Source: Bacteroidota bacterium (lineage in GTDB: Bacteria > Bacteroidota > Bacteroidia > Sphingobacteriales > Sphingobacteriaceae). Taken from it: a stretch of 64,000 nucleotides of DNA. Both the position numbers and the translations under genes were made by a program. Location of the stretch: positions 1 to 64,000 of the forward strand of contig JAMFRP010000006.1 of NCBI GenBank assembly GCA_026224775.1. The letters are read 5' to 3'. Position 1 is the stretch's first letter. Each line of letters begins with the position of its first letter. This document shows, in pieces, positions 30,475-62,973 of the stretch. Below the pieces are notes generated by a model. That model was not told the origin of the DNA, made no database searches, and saw only the letters and a program-made list of their open reading frames with translations.

Positions 30475-30555
30475 TGTTATTGCGAGGAACGAAGCAATCG
30501 CGAACTTTGCATGTCTGCTTTTCTACATGAGATTGCTTCGTTCCTCGCAATGACA
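30475..30555. repeat. REP-like palindrome, GTCATTGCGAGGAACGAAGC family
   Basis: Arms of 25 bp at 30475-30499 and 30531-30555, complementary except for one base; the right arm reads GATTGCTTCGTTCCTCGCAA followed by TGACA. The loop is 31 bases. The same arm sequence recurs at 62901-62973. A strong cruciform/hairpin, probably a mobile intergenic palindrome. Confidence 0.85.
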
Positions 30556-53857: not shown

Positions 53858-56737
53858 CTAAAAAATACTCACCGGAACGATCAACTCAAACCTGTTCCTA
53901 CCGCTGCCGCCGTACAGGTCGGGATCAAGCAGGCGGTCATATCTGAAACCAAACGAAATCGCTTCCTGGTTAAACCACTTGGTATCAAAGTAAACCTCTA
54001 AACCTGTTGAGTTAAAATTAGCTTTGAACTTTGAGCCATCTACATAAAAATCATTCGCAAGCGTATAATCATAAAAAGCATTGCCGCGGACACGCATAAT
54101 ATATATCGTATTAGCTACCCCTGCATCAGGATAAGCTATCGGAAAACTGTAATTCGCCCCTAACTTATCCATTTTATAAAAGTTTTCGGCGGTATATCCC
54201 CTCGAGAACGGGAAATTATTTGAGTAATCGATCACATTATCAGCGCTGCCTTTTTGCTGATAAGCCGCATTGAAAAATAAGCTATGATTAACAGACAGTC
54301 CCGGAAAATAAAAAGTACCAGTTGCTAAAAATTGCGTAGAGCTTTGTCCGGTCACCGCGTTTTGATAACCCAACTGTATGCTTTGCGCGAAATGCGGAAA
54401 TATATTTTTTTGCGCCTGTAAGGTGCTGTTATAAAAATAAAGATAGTTATTCAGGTAAGCGTACGACTGATCGGCAAACAAAGCACGGTATGCCTGCTGA
54501 AAACTACTGCTGCTATACACCAAATCGCTACCTATAGCCAGCGAGGTACTGCTTTTGCCACGGGTGAAATTCAAAGGTAACTCTAAACCACCTTGCACAC
54601 TGGTTTCGTTCCAATAAATGTTTGTGCCACGGTATAGCTCCCGCCTGTCAATCGTATAATCAACTCCTCCTGATATATATGGAAATAAAGCTCCGTAAAT
54701 AGCATTAAAGCCAAACTCCTTGTAACCCTCGTCACGGTTATAGTTGAATAAGATGTTTGATTGAAAGGTATTCAGCACATTTTCACCCTGTATCTCTAAA
54801 GTATAATTCGGGTCGTCAATATTCGGGACAAGGCTATGAAAATTAAACAGGTGATAGGCTTTATTATACTTGCTAATACCCACCGGTTTGTTTTGTACCG
54901 ATGCCAGTAAATTAGTTGATGAATCGCGCGTTAAAGCAGTAATATTAAAGTTAGGTAATGTACCGGGGATCGCTCCGCCTGGTAATTCGTTCCATTGAAT
55001 TGCGGTATTATCAATTTGATGAATTTGATAACCATACGAAGTAAAACTTACCCAGGCCAATTTCTTGTCTGAAACCGAAGTTTCATAATTACCAATAAAT
55101 GTTTGCAGCGAATCACCTTTTAACTCATACAGTTTATCATTCTTTAAATTGATAGCGAACAACCTATCGTTAATATTACTGGTCGCCGAAAAGTAAGCAG
55201 TATCGCCATGCAGATGCGGAAACACTATTGGTTGAAAAGTAAACGGCAATAGATATTTAGCTTCGCCCGTTTTGATATTAATAATAGCCAGCGACATTTT
55301 GCCTTTGCTGTTCCTTACCGTTGCAACTAAATTATCCCGCCCATAAAACTTAGGATACGTATAAAATAAATGCTGCTTATTGGGCACAACAGCTAATAAT
55401 TTACCCGTAACCGCGTCAAGCAAATGCACATCGCATTTTCCCGATGGCGCTTCTTGCACCACGGCAATCGTTTTACCATCCGGACTAAACGATGGTGCAA
55501 AGTATTTTGTGCCTTTAGTAATGCGATGTTCCTTTCCGGTTTTTACATCCAATAATATTAGCTCACTATAATCCCGGTAATTCCAACGCAGATCAGGACG
55601 GTAACTGGCATAAATTATTTTGCCATCATGATAATCAAAATAATTATCCAGTGAATAGCTGCGGGTGCTGATGGTCTTCTCAGTATTACCTTCCTTAATT
55701 ACAAAAACAGGCGTATTATCGTAGGTGGTTTTTGAATAGATGAGTGTATGATCATCAATGTAAGCAGGGTATTCACGGTCTGCATCGAAATGCTTATGCT
55801 TATTCACTATTGAAATACCTCGAACATGATCGAACAAATTATACTTATTCAACTTTAAAAGTGAATCTGGTATCTTGTATGGCACTTCAAACTGAACTTT
55901 GAAATGATTCAACGCATCATTCCTAAAATCTACAAAATCCTTACCCGAGTACTTCTTGATCGCCCGCTCAAACGGATAAAAGCCATCTTTATAAGCCGCA
56001 GCATCATGCGTTACCTTCTTCCAAAAGTCATCGCCATACTTTTCCCTGCCGTAGCTCACCAGCATGTATCCGAGCGGATACCAATCCGGCGTATAGTCGC
56101 GATACGATCCGTTGCGGATCTTCATATAACTGTAATTCCTGCCATCTGCCCACAAAGCCCTGAAGCCATCTAAAAAATATGGTAACCTGCCTCTGCCCTG
56201 TTCGCTTACATGGGTTTCGTTAAAAACGGCATCGCCCTCAAAAAACCAGTTTGGTACAGCAAGATCATTGGCTAATGCCTGTCCACCTTCGCCAAACAAA
56301 AAGCGCATGGTTTTGGATAGGCCAACATCAAAATTATTATACTGTTGCACATGCCTAAATTCGTGTATAGCCAATTGCTCTGGCCAGGGCAAACTGCCTA
56401 TATCAAAGCTGTTCTGCTCCGGCGTCAAGAAAAACTCACTTCTAAACGGCGCTAACTGAACATAAGCATTGGTAATAGTGGTTTGGTTCTGCATCAATAT
56501 GCTCACCTGCCGCTGTTTAAAGCCAATAGTAGGTTGTATAGCGCCATTCATTTGCGTAACAATGTTAGCTACTCTCAATCCCTCCGTATCCAACCCCACC
56601 GGGAAGATCACCTTTGCAGCCGGAGTATTTACCTGTTCCCATTTAATGGATGGCGGATTACCCCCAAACTCCTGCGCACGGGCAATCCCGGCAAACAATA
56701 ACAAACTTAAAATGAGTGGAAATAGGGGTTTATTCAT
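53858..56737 (-). CDS. Outer-membrane protein with metalloprotease-like, beta-propeller and barrel regions
   Basis: A 959-residue exported protein. A signal peptide (cleavage near ARAQ, residue 22) is followed by a gluzincin-like domain with HEFRH at 125-129 and Glu168 in WFFEGDAVFNE. A TolB/PD40-type propeller follows (about 330-640) with repeats such as APSFSPDGKTIAVVQEA and HPHLHGDTAYFSA. The C-terminal 270 residues are strand-rich and end RNRFELIVPVSIF with terminal Phe, as in BAM-inserted barrels. The start at 56737 (MNKPLFPLILSLLLF) is preferred to 16 upstream codons. It could be a surface protease anchored by its own barrel; substrate unknown. Confidence 0.82.
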   Translation of the reverse strand: MNKPLFPLILSLLLFAGIARAQEFGGNPPSIKWEQVNTPAAKVIFPVGLDTEGLRVANIVTQMNGAIQPTIGFKQRQVSILMQNQTTITNAYVQLAPFRSEFFLTPEQNSFDIGSLPWPEQLAIHEFRHVQQYNNFDVGLSKTMRFLFGEGGQALANDLAVPNWFFEGDAVFNETHVSEQGRGRLPYFLDGFRALWADGRNYSYMKIRNGSYRDYTPDWYPLGYMLVSYGREKYGDDFWKKVTHDAAAYKDGFYPFERAIKKYSGKDFVDFRNDALNHFKVQFEVPYKIPDSLLKLNKYNLFDHVRGISIVNKHKHFDADREYPAYIDDHTLIYSKTTYDNTPVFVIKEGNTEKTISTRSYSLDNYFDYHDGKIIYASYRPDLRWNYRDYSELILLDVKTGKEHRITKGTKYFAPSFSPDGKTIAVVQEAPSGKCDVHLLDAVTGKLLAVVPNKQHLFYTYPKFYGRDNLVATVRNSKGKMSLAIINIKTGEAKYLLPFTFQPIVFPHLHGDTAYFSATSNINDRLFAINLKNDKLYELKGDSLQTFIGNYETSVSDKKLAWVSFTSYGYQIHQIDNTAIQWNELPGGAIPGTLPNFNITALTRDSSTNLLASVQNKPVGISKYNKAYHLFNFHSLVPNIDDPNYTLEIQGENVLNTFQSNILFNYNRDEGYKEFGFNAIYGALFPYISGGVDYTIDRRELYRGTNIYWNETSVQGGLELPLNFTRGKSSTSLAIGSDLVYSSSSFQQAYRALFADQSYAYLNNYLYFYNSTLQAQKNIFPHFAQSIQLGYQNAVTGQSSTQFLATGTFYFPGLSVNHSLFFNAAYQQKGSADNVIDYSNNFPFSRGYTAENFYKMDKLGANYSFPIAYPDAGVANTIYIMRVRGNAFYDYTLANDFYVDGSKFKANFNSTGLEVYFDTKWFNQEAISFGFRYDRLLDPDLYGGSGRNRFELIVPVSIF

Positions 56738-56848
56738 GCAGATGTGAAAGTAATTACAAAATATCATATTCGGAATTATCAGCATTAAAGATTTAAGAGG
56801 TTAATTGTTTTGTTACAGAGCTTACTCACCCTAGCCCTCTTCCTCTAT

Positions 56849-56995
56849 GTCATTGCGAGCAAGACTGAGAAAAAGCCTGCGCGGCGAAGCAAACTCGTAG
56901 CAGTGCAATAACCAATTTTCTAATCCTGCACGTATACTATGCGACGAGTTTGCTTCGCCACACTACCCCATTTCAAATACCCCGCTCGCAATGAC
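56849..56995. repeat. GTCATTGCGAGC palindrome, copy 1
   Basis: Outer arms GTCATTGCGAGC (56849-56860) and GCTCGCAATGAC (56984-56995). Inner arms GGCGAAGCAAACTCGT (56883-56898) and ACGAGTTTGCTTCGCC (56944-56959). It has the same nested design and arm sequences as copies 2 and 3. Confidence 0.85.
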
Positions 56996-57053
56996 ATACT
57001 GTTTTAGAATTTCAGGAAATATTACAGAAAATCCCTCTAACCCTCTCCACCGT

Positions 57054-57140
57054 GTCATTGCGAGCCAGACCGAGAAAAGCCCAGCGCGGCGAAGCAAACT
57101 CGTAGCCATGCAATAACAGATTTTTAATTTAAATCTGTTA
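57054..57140 (+). repeat. GTCATTGCGAGC palindrome, copy 2 (half element with own hairpin)
   Basis: Only the left half is present: GTCATTGCGAGCC from 57054, GCGCGGCGAAGCAAACTCGTAG from about 57085, then TGCAATAA. It runs directly into a perfect 10-bp hairpin, TAACAGATTT (57114-57123) and AAATCTGTTA (57131-57140). It ends 56 bases before the GIY-YIG start. Confidence 0.75.
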
Positions 57141-57196
57141 ACCTCATTTATTAAAATCACCTTTTACCAAACAATAATTTTTATAATATTTGATTA

Positions 57197-57493
57197 ATGG
57201 AGAACGCCCAATACTGCATCTACATTGTTACCAATAAATCTAATACTACATTATATATTGGTGTTACAAGTAATCTACAAGAACGTATCTGGCAACACAA
57301 ACAAAAAGTATATACCGGTTTTACATCAAGATATGATTGTGATAAATTGGTGTATTTTGAAGAATACCGTTTCATACAAGATGCAATTGCAAGAGAAAAA
57401 CAACTGAAAGGTGGATCACGCCAAAAGAAAATAAACTTAATAGTAGCTAAAAATCCAGCCTGGAAAGATTTAAGCGAGGATTGGTATGATTAA
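57197..57493 (+). CDS. GIY-YIG endonuclease (UPF0213-like)
   Basis: A 98-residue single-domain GIY-YIG nuclease. The signature tyrosines are Tyr8 or Tyr10 region (YCIYIVTN) and Tyr20 in LYIGVTS; catalytic Arg30 in LQERIWQHKQK; the metal-binding acidic residue is probably Glu68 in AIAREKQLKGG. The C-terminus KNPAWKDLSEDWY is typical of the short Bacteroidota/UPF0213 group. There is no extra DNA-binding domain. It lies alone between copies 1-2 and copy 3 of one palindrome family, with a 6-bp hairpin (57482-57498) over its stop. A role in repeat mobility is possible but unproven; a DNA repair nuclease is the alternative. Confidence 0.9.
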   Translation: MENAQYCIYIVTNKSNTTLYIGVTSNLQERIWQHKQKVYTGFTSRYDCDKLVYFEEYRFIQDAIAREKQLKGGSRQKKINLIVAKNPAWKDLSEDWYD

Positions 57494-57519
57494 TACCAGC
57501 GTGGTGGTCAACGCCTCTC

Positions 57520-57667
57520 CACCATGTCATTGCGAGCGGGTCTGAGAAAAGGCATGCGCGGCGAAGCAAACTCGTAGCTATGCAATAAACAACTGCATAT
57601 ATATATCATGCTACGAGTTTGCTTCGCACCACAGTCCACGCCAAACCCCGCTCGCAATGACATGGTG
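57520..57667. repeat. GTCATTGCGAGC palindrome, copy 3
   Basis: Perfect 21-bp terminal arms at 57520-57540 and 57647-57667 (beginning CACCATGTCATTGCGAGC) and perfect 18-bp inner arms GCGAAGCAAACTCGTAGC (57561-57578) and its complement (57610-57627). It starts 27 bases after the GIY-YIG stop. The best-preserved copy in the window. Confidence 0.9.
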
Positions 57668-57754: not shown

Positions 57755-59623
57755 ATGGCTAAAGTATCTATCAACCTGGCAACAGGTTCATTGCAAAAAG
57801 AAGAAATTATTGTCGGCATCGATCTGGGCACTACCAACTCATTGGTGGCTTTCATCAACCCTGATAAACAACCACAGGTAATTAACGATTTGGGTAAGGG
57901 TGTATTAGTACCATCTATTGTTCACTTTTCTGAAACCGGTGACATCACCGTAGGTAACGAGGCTAAAGAGTATTTAACCACCGATCCGCATAATACCATC
58001 TTCTCTGTAAAAAGGCTGCTTGGTCGCTCATATAAAGACATTGAAAACTATCAAGACTTTTTTAGCTATAAAGTTATTGATGATAATACAGAAAGTCTGG
58101 TAAAAATAAAAGTTGGAGATAAATTCTATACCCCAATCGAACTTTCAGGATTGATCCTAAAAGAACTTAAAGCCCGTGCCGAACATGCGCTAAAAACGCC
58201 TGTAAACCGTGCGGTGATAACCGTTCCCGCTTATTTTAACGACTCGCAGCGCCAGGCAACCCGCGATGCCGGTAAATTAGCCGGACTTGACGTATTACGC
58301 ATTGTAAACGAACCTACCGCCGCGAGTTTAGCCTATGGCATCGGTTTGAATCCCGAAGAAACAAAAACCATTGCTGTTTATGATTTAGGTGGCGGCACTT
58401 TTGATGTATCCATCCTGCAAATACAAAATGGCATCTTCGAGGTTTTAGCCACCAATGGCGATACTTTTTTGGGTGGAGATGATTTTGACAGCGCGATTGT
58501 TGATTACTGGATTGAAAAGAACCAATTGAACAAAGCGGAGATCATCCAAAACCATGAACTTGCGCAGCAACTACGCTTAAAAGCAGAAGAAACTAAGAAG
58601 GCATTTTCACACCAGAATTTAGTGAACGATAAGATTGGTGATATATGGTGTACATTGGATAAGCAAACTTTTGAGTCGCTGATCCTGCCTAAAGTGCAGC
58701 AAACCATACAAGCCTGCAAAAACGCGTTGAAAGACGCGGGATTGACAGTCGATAAAATTGATGAAGTAGTGATGGTCGGCGGCTCTACACGCACAGCCCT
58801 AGTTAAAAAAATGGTTGCCGAGTTTTTTGGCCGACCAGTACATGATGAAGTAAACCCTGATGAAGTAGTTGCCCTGGGAGCTGCCATTCAGGCCGATATA
58901 TTAGCCGGTAATCGCAGCGATATTTTATTGCTGGATGTTACCCCACTGTCTTTAGGTATTGAAACGATGGGTGGTTTAATGGATGTGATTATTCCCCGCA
59001 ACTCAAAAGTACCAACCAAAGCAGGCAGGCAGTATACCACGTCAATCGACGGACAGGTAAACATGAAGATAGCTGTTTATCAGGGCGAACGTGATTTAAT
59101 CAGCGAAAACCGTAAACTGGCAGAATTTGATTTAAAAGGCATCCCATCTATGCCTGCAGGTTTCCCTAAGGTTGATATTAACTTTTTATTGAATGCGGAT
59201 GGTATTTTAACTATTCAGGCCATTGAACTGCGTTCAGGTGTAAAACAGGAAGTTGAAGTAAAACCTGCCTACGGTATAACAGATGACGTGGTAGAGCAAA
59301 TGCTTTTAGACAGCATCACCCACGCCAAAGAAGACGTTGCCCAGCGCATGTTAATTGAAGCCCGCACCGAAGGCGAACAAATGGTTTACACCGTTGAACG
59401 CTTCCTCCAAAAAAATGCCGACCATGTAAGCATTGCTGAAATGGCTGAAACAAACAAATACCTTACCTCGCTAAAAGCAACACTAACCAGCGGCGATAAA
59501 GATGCCATACACAAAGCAATTGATGAGCTTAACGAATTCACCCGCCCATTCGCCGAACGCCTGATGGATCATGCGATCAGCACAGCGATGAAAGGAAAAA
59601 GCATAGAAAACGGCCCGGAATAG
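57755..59623 (+). CDS. hscA: Hsp70-family chaperone, HscA-like
   Basis: A 622-residue Hsp70. The nucleotide-binding domain (about 18-385) has [21 protein letters not shown], the [11 protein letters not shown] segment and [12 protein letters not shown]; the substrate-binding domain follows [16 protein letters not shown]. HscA-specific traits are the extended N-terminus before [39 protein letters not shown], and the absence of the DnaK C-terminal GGMP-rich tail. HscA helps transfer Fe-S clusters from the scaffold IscU with its J-partner HscB. No isc gene or hscB is adjacent, which leaves open a more general role. Confidence 0.88.
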
Positions 59624-62900: not shown

Positions 62901-62973
62901 GTCATTGCGAGGAACGAAGCAATCGCATATATGCAAAGTTCGCGATTGCTTCGTCGTACCTTCTCGCAATGAC
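62901..62973. repeat. REP-like palindrome, GTCATTGCGAGGAACGAAGC family, second copy
   Basis: Left arm GTCATTGCGAGGAACGAAGC continuing to 62926; right arm from 62942 with six extra bases (CGTCGTACCTTCTCGC) before CAATGAC. The same arm sequence as at 30475-30555. It occupies the space between the oxidase and accC genes and gives a false N-terminal extension to accC. Confidence 0.85.

Follow-up and report, generated by a model that had tools for sequence, protein, structure and literature searches.

The 64,000-nucleotide stretch of DNA analysed here (hereafter the window; positions 1 to 64,000 of contig JAMFRP010000006.1 in the Bacteroidota assembly GCA_026224775.1, family Sphingobacteriaceae) harbors a gene for a 98-residue GIY-YIG nuclease that is embedded in copies of one nested palindrome. 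We propose that the product of this gene is a small GIY-YIG nuclease of the Ssn type, which recognizes the palindromes flanking the gene and cuts them as single-stranded hairpins, a reading which, judged from sequence comparison, we rate at a probability of roughly 0.75. Together with its palindromes, the gene makes up a single unit in a spacer from which it is absent in the examined relatives, and the palindromes are variants of a CGTC/TGTC-tagged family resembling repetitive extragenic palindromes (REPs), with 381 core sites in the genome. Across the genus, the association of such nucleases with palindromes is recurrent and far beyond chance, and protein clades match palindrome types, which supports a putative recognition of the palindrome by the protein. 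Cognate recognition and cutting, taken on their own, appear highly probable to us, and the odds that the nuclease would also spread the repeats are about even.

The nuclease gene and its palindromes

The locus comprises the following elements (positions in the window):

57197-57493 (stop codon included), plus strand: GIY-YIG nuclease gene, 98 amino acids, Pfam PF01541 with E=1.7e-16
56849-56995, no strand assigned: palindrome copy 1, two inverted loop-expanded REP-like units with a nested-hairpin fold
57054-57124, plus strand: palindrome copy 2, a single unit (half copy) with 85% identity to copy 1 over 57046-57124
57115-57139, no strand assigned: 9-bp hairpin AACAGATTT...AAATCTGTT found by folding, distinct from the half copy and on its gene-facing side
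57520-57667, no strand assigned: palindrome copy 3, recognized by the complementarity of its outer and inner arms

The Pfam match spans the full 78-position profile. In an alignment of 10 homologues from Bacteroidota, Alphaproteobacteria, Neisseria, a cyanobacterium and Aeromonas, the residues Y9, Y20, G22, R30, H34, E67, K71, R75, N86 and W89 are among the invariant columns, and the protein shows the Ssn-type feature of a stand-alone small GIY-YIG domain in which the residues that we take to be catalytic are intact. UPF0213/YhbQ-like proteins and the N-terminal domain of UvrC belong to the same fold family, UvrC differing in that it is a long repair protein. A sequence search of solved structures at E values up to 10 returned only two, both weak matches, namely 1yd6 (UvrC, E=0.33) and 1zg2 (UPF0213, E=0.43).

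Both full palindrome copies are inverted pairs with a nested-hairpin fold. In copy 1, the outer arms (56846-56860/56984-56998) enclose the inner arms (56883-56902/56940-56959), and 23 nt separate the half-arms, while in copy 3 the outer arms (57520-57540/57647-57667, 21 nt) as well as the inner arms (57561-57578/57610-57627, 18 nt) are 100% complementary. Folded as single-stranded DNA, copy 3 reaches -52.3 kcal/mol (z -11.3) and copy 1 -36.6 kcal/mol (z -7.9), and in either case none of 200 shuffled sequences was equally stable. The 79-nt left halves begin at 56841 (taken as the reference), 57046 (85%) and 57518 (84%); right halves are present in the first and third copies only. A sequence-only reading of the window had already described the gene among three palindrome copies, with coordinates that proved right for both full copies. 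It had drawn the half copy to 57140, of which the part up to about 57124 is recognizable and the remainder belongs to the separate 9-bp hairpin.

The same reading had held that this palindrome subfamily occurs in the window only around the gene. This is true of the inner arm GCGAAGCAAACTCGTAGC, whose five sites at up to 4 mismatches all lie in the surroundings of the gene. It does not hold for the outer core GTCATTGCGAG, which has eight sites in the window and also builds two ordinary pairs at a distance:

30476-30554, no strand assigned: ordinary short-loop REP pair with core GTCATTGCGAG, one arm with 1 mismatch, 26 kb from the GIY-YIG gene
62901-62973, no strand assigned: ordinary short-loop REP pair with core GTCATTGCGAG, more than 5 kb from the GIY-YIG gene

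We extended the search to the whole genome (5.43 Mb in 62 contigs; the window is G000:C50:1-64000 in our numbering). The inner arm, exact or with one mismatch, was found at this locus and in one further element at G000:C37:154467. Since the latter combines one loop-expanded arm with one ordinary short arm, we take the local subfamily to be derived from the common one by loop expansion, and the expanded loop looks like a young private subfamily. The core has 381 sites genome-wide (193 on the plus and 188 on the minus strand; reversed control 0 on either strand), which in the first part of the site list are mostly inverted pairs about 70 bp apart. Fifteen of these sites fall within about 350 bp of three small GIY-YIG genes, versus an expectation of about 0.2 by area. 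A cognate repeat in many copies near the gene is hence found for the core, the loop-expanded subfamily being nearly restricted to this locus.

Five genes of the genome match PF01541, that is the three small ones, a 604-aa frame that, on length alone, is presumably UvrC, and a 468-aa frame; since the assembly is 94.7% complete, further GIY-YIG genes may be missing. Each of the three small genes has a palindrome on both sides, and each has a different subfamily, namely the loop-expanded one on C50, GTCATTGCGAGGAACGAAGCAATCGC on C22 and CGTCATTGCGAGCGAAGCGTGGCAATCCCC on C28. The tag that is typical of CGTC REPs is present as TGTC at this locus and as CGTC on C28.

Distribution within and beyond the genus

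In a search of 61 genomes of the genus, which are not independent of each other, we inspected the flanks of 93 small GIY-YIG genes found in 41 of them. The present type accounts for 68 (37 genomes), and the other 25 are of a second type, which is separated by its N-terminal letters. These genes are the better-scoring among the matches listed, and nuclease presence per genome is a lower bound. We scored repeats common to the 500 bp on either side of a gene (score at least 18; three of the 93 genes were left out for short flanks). Such a shared repeat was found at 69 of the 90 testable genes versus 2 of 500 shifted windows, and by type at 55/66 genes of the present and 14/24 of the second type.

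A more specific picture was obtained with the motif GTCATNNYGAR, sought within 400 bp of genes with flanks of at least 300 bp (65 of the 68 and 20 of the 25 genes). It stands on both sides of 53 of the 65 present-type genes (upstream of 61, downstream of 56), versus none of 259 control open reading frames (ORFs), of which 10 have it upstream only and 19 downstream only. Both-sided occurrence was likewise absent from the 20 second-type genes and, with the reversed motif, from all 65 present-type genes. Motif density is about 8 per kb beside the gene and at most 0.4 beyond 500 bp. As a further control we took 44 Y1_Tnp genes, 40 from the weaker-scoring, RAYT-like part of the genus matches and 4 from this genome. 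None has the motif on both sides and one has it on one side, which means that the hallmark of GTAG REPs, a Y1 transposase gene flanked by the repeat, is not seen here (0/44). In a later batch of 55 further genes, taken after the motif had been fixed, flanks of 300 bp or more were available for 49 (40 of the present and 9 of the second type); the motif was on both sides of 27/40 and on either side of 33/40, and on both sides of 0/9 second-type genes. Of the seven genes without any motif, three form a separate group beginning MWYYVYILE/K. The excess near GIY-YIG genes that the sequence-only reading had anticipated for this genome and its relatives is hence present, and an even scatter was not found.

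The identity of the palindrome follows that of the protein. In cluster 1 (KQYFVYILLC), the 15 stems are GGTG (6), GCTG (5), CCTG (2) and ACTG (2); in cluster 2 (KQGYIYIMSN) 7 of 10 are GCCA and 3 GCTA; cluster 3 (WNYNFYVYITTN) has TTCA in 8/13 and four other types in the remainder; and in cluster 4, which contains the 98-aa protein, 28/29 are TGCG. When types were permuted among the genes of the same genome, a contrast in protein similarity as strong as the observed one (0.212; permuted mean 0.072, sd 0.023) arose in none of 2000 trials. The nearest protein from another genome has the same palindrome type in 51/67 cases versus 14.1 expected, one of the 68 genes having been dropped for want of a motif and another having been typed from a chance motif (AATA). 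Left and right flanks agree in type in 48/55 cases, and in the later batch the exact type was predicted by the closest protein of the first set in 24/36. All three small genes of the present genome belong to type TGCG, with differences in the loop and the outer stem; the distinction between them hence rests on their sequences and not on the clade test.

Counts of four palindrome families in all 61 genomes point the same way. Each of the four nuclease clades has its lowest P value with the counts of its own palindrome (0.0003, 0.0006, 0.007 and 0.0014), where the P values ignore the tree and one motif-less cluster-1 gene was added by hand. The present genome has 15 cluster-1-type palindrome sites and no cluster-1 gene among its GIY-YIG matches. 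As a side observation on such repeats, G031:C1:970238-970836 holds five direct copies of GTCATTTCGAA at an exact spacing of 147 bp, a tandem array of a REP-containing unit.

The arrangement recurs outside the genus. A tblastn search of plasmid-collection records found 32 loci, of which 15 were examined; several of these 'plasmid' records are chromosome-sized (2.2-4.9 Mb; L118, L125, L128 and similar), and their labels need care. A shared flank repeat is present at 11/15 loci versus 3/149 windows. Among them are Azospirillum lipoferum, Novosphingobium aromaticivorans, Sinorhizobium meliloti and Neisseria gonorrhoeae. The Neisseria homologue is 45.7% identical to the 98-aa protein and has CGTC-type repeats on both sides. 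On the Azospirillum lipoferum plasmid AZO_p3, the GIY-YIG gene is flanked on both sides by REPs matching the CGTC consensus (CGTC-ATCCCCGC-GAAG-GCGGGGAT-CCA) and is located in the suf cluster, where sufB lies on one side of it and sufC on the other. A scan of species genomes yielded at least 80 loci in many phyla, and of the 79 tested (one of 80 was dropped) 44 have a shared flank repeat, compared to 8 of 412 windows. The strict CGTC hairpin occurs on both sides of 5/79 and on any side of 19/79 of these loci versus 0 and 25 of the 412 windows; for distant phyla the shared-repeat score is hence preferable. The repeats shared by distant loci are not all CGTC REPs.

The second small GIY-YIG type looks like a separate mobile unit. 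It was seen immediately downstream of tRNA genes (for Met, Val, Leu and Asp in the loci scanned), at L102 (G028:C10:152971-153918), L107 and L108 (G021), L085 (G015), L086, L111, L072 and L054. The six loci inspected have a remodelled copy of the tRNA 3' end downstream of the gene, followed by a terminator-like hairpin, and in places 2-3 units of roughly 350-369 bp follow each other as tandem arrays. The shared repeats inspected for this type are tRNA ends or tandem copies and not REPs.

To view the locus in its genomic context, we compared the spacer that contains it, which is delimited by two conserved genes:

53858-56785, minus strand: left neighbour, ORF of 975 amino acids, used as marker of the conserved spacer
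57755-59623, plus strand: right neighbour, HSP70/DnaK-like gene, used as marker of the conserved spacer

Among 30 loci of the HSP70 gene in the genus, 22 including this one have the 975-aa gene on the left, and the GIY-YIG gene is absent from the spacer in 21/21 relatives with this upstream gene. The spacer measures 969 bp here, 86-261 bp in 19 others (as judged by alignment ends), and 598 and 883 bp in two. In the two closest relatives, the spacer contains REP pairs that are unrelated and belong to other types. Alignment makes the borders of the element visible and revealed no target-site duplication. Gain at this locus is the simpler reading. Near-duplicate GIY-YIG genes exist inside the genomes G053, G028, G008 and G026.

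Relation to known nucleases and repeat classes

Site-specific single-strand GIY-YIG nucleases acting together with NTS repeats in Neisseria, the Ssn family, were reportedly described in Nature Communications in 2025. Ssn and NTS are reported to have a role in DNA transformation. The present protein resembles Ssn in being a small stand-alone GIY-YIG protein with a cognate sequence repeated in many copies, and we class it as an Ssn-type member with predicted cleavage activity. It differs in that its gene is nested between palindromes, that several different pairs occur together in one genome and that it has a private loop-expanded palindrome. We infer that the Neisseria homologue is Ssn itself. 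The principle of the pairing is probably already known as Ssn, and the earlier suggestion of a 'new kind of repeat-associated enzyme' overstated the case.

The repeats lead to a different body of work. According to Di Nocera et al. 2013 (PMC3733652), CGTC-tagged REPs are a large repeat class in five phyla, Bacteroidetes among them, with Azospirillum lipoferum, Novosphingobium aromaticivorans, Sinorhizobium meliloti and Neisseriae named as carriers; the survey states that a dedicated enzyme is lacking and leaves the mover, if any, open, and it identifies the neisserial dRS3 repeats as CGTC-1 REPs. With this class, as described there, the palindromes of the genus share the C/TGTC tag, the stem starting with AT, inverted dimers and high copy number, the last two being found here as well. 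They differ in that the perfect stems of the genus palindromes are shorter and this locus has expanded loops and no CCA tail. The full form, with an 8-9 bp stem starting with AT, a 4-5 nt loop and a CCA-like tail, was recognized by eye in flanks of Azospirillum, Flavivirga and Hanstruepera. It is not found at the present locus, where the stem begins with AT yet is broken, the loop is expanded and the tail is absent, and we hence term these palindromes REP-like.

In its organization the system is similar to the RAYT/REPIN system, that is in an enzyme gene between palindrome copies, inverted dimers, a low-copy enzyme and a high-copy repeat. It is unlike it in the enzyme, which is GIY-YIG and not HUH/Y1, and in the tag, which is C/TGTC and not GTAG. 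The RAYT/REP-like arrangement of a nuclease with a cognate palindrome, put forward in the sequence-only reading by analogy, is strongly supported by the flank enrichment, the within-genome cognate matching, the comparison with RAYT-like genes, the later batch and the other phyla. A literature search, outside which most subscription papers lay, found no paper joining GIY-YIG nucleases with REPs, and the passages available of RepRanger 2025 (PMC12306157) and of a Bradyrhizobium paper (PMC5082802) contain no word starting with 'nuclease'. We would expect the link to CGTC REPs and the comparison with RAYTs to be the parts that are new to a specialist.

Competing explanations and biological meaning

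In the mechanism that we envisage, the protein would bind and cut its own palindrome, most likely when this is single-stranded during replication or DNA uptake. The adjacency of gene and target may keep enzyme and palindrome co-evolving, so that clades would drift to new stem and loop types. Repair of the break could occasionally copy the palindrome, or gene and palindromes together, to another place, and the GIY-YIG gene would then be the autonomous master of its REP family, as RAYTs are thought to be for GTAG REPs.

The nuclease might also cut the palindromes while the pair serves DNA uptake or recombination, as Ssn and NTS do in Neisseria, and would then not spread the repeats. The CGTC-type repeats on both sides of the Neisseria homologue and the membership of dRS3 among the CGTC-1 REPs (PMC3733652) are in keeping with this explanation, which by itself accounts neither for the place of the gene between the copies nor for the private subfamilies; we regard it as possible, if rather doubtful. 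That the palindromes are mere ends of one mobile unit, akin to the terminal inverted repeats of insertion sequences, with the scattered copies as decayed or non-autonomous relics, would agree with their bracketing of the gene, the lack of gene and palindromes from the orthologous spacer in the examined relatives and the near-duplicate genes in four genomes. Each side here, however, carries a full inverted pair and not a single arm, there are far fewer genes (among those fetched, no more than 4 of one clade in a genome and no more than 5 in a genome overall) than the 381 core sites, and no target-site duplication was seen in the spacer alignment; we regard this explanation as improbable.

We further considered that RAYT transposases move the REPs and that the GIY-YIG genes merely landed in REP-rich spacers. 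The genome has six Y1_Tnp matches, and one RAYT-like gene (L132, G000:C8:10512-10730) extends at its 3' end into two copies of the common REP in direct orientation. Of the 44 RAYT-like genes it alone has the motif next to it, however, and landing in REP-rich spacers would not predict the within-genome matching of clades and palindromes. We reject RAYTs as movers of this repeat class on the basis of the absence of both-sided motifs from all 44 genes, and rate the explanation as very unlikely. A chance position of a nuclease gene near unrelated repeats, which the sequence-only reading had named as its alternative, could appeal to the commonness of the REP core. It is contradicted by the clustering of 15 of the 381 sites at three genes and was rejected by the shifted-window, control-ORF, plasmid-record and distant-phyla controls, leaving it a negligible probability.

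A number of observations weigh against recognition and cutting of the palindromes by the nuclease, or against their spread by it. We infer cutting, the single-strandedness of the substrate and spreading from sequence. The motif GTCATNNYGAR was composed after the first gene set had been inspected, and it is missing on one or both sides in 12/65 and 13/40 genes, related genes that lack the palindrome being a minority only. A strict inverted pair with perfect 9-nt outer arms is found on both sides of 6/66 genes only (RAYT-like genes 0/44, positions 0/455, ORFs 1/176), a definition that is too strict. No shared flank repeat was detected at 4/15 plasmid-record loci and 35/79 distant loci. Three of the 12 off-diagonal pairs of clade and palindrome also have P <0.05. 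Many genomes carry palindromes without a listed cognate nuclease, and hence the palindromes can probably persist without the enzyme. G017 (8.2 Mb), for example, has 579 GTCATTGCGAG sites, and of its three PF01541 matches one is listed, of another type; this is possibly an orphan REP population. Gene context is often conserved, with a shared neighbour in 5/7 pairs of at least 90% identity and in 21/69 pairs of 80-90%, indicating that movement is rare, slow or old. Finally, GIY-YIG enzymes hydrolyse DNA and we know of no strand joining by them, and spreading would hence need host repair.

On the broader scale, we consider it somewhat better than an even bet that the dedicated enzymes which CGTC-tagged REPs have seemed to lack are small stand-alone GIY-YIG nucleases, a second independent class of REP-associated enzyme beside the RAYTs. 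Clades of nucleases and palindromes would then co-diversify across a range that takes in Bacteroidota, Alphaproteobacteria, Neisseria, Cyanobacteria and further groups, and new private palindromes, like the present type with its expanded loop, would arise at the nuclease gene. The analysis names a candidate enzyme for CGTC REPs, assigns a palindrome type to each protein clade and supplies pairs that are ready for testing, three different ones of which come from the same genome. Enzymes that cut single-stranded hairpins in a sequence-specific manner would moreover be useful tools.
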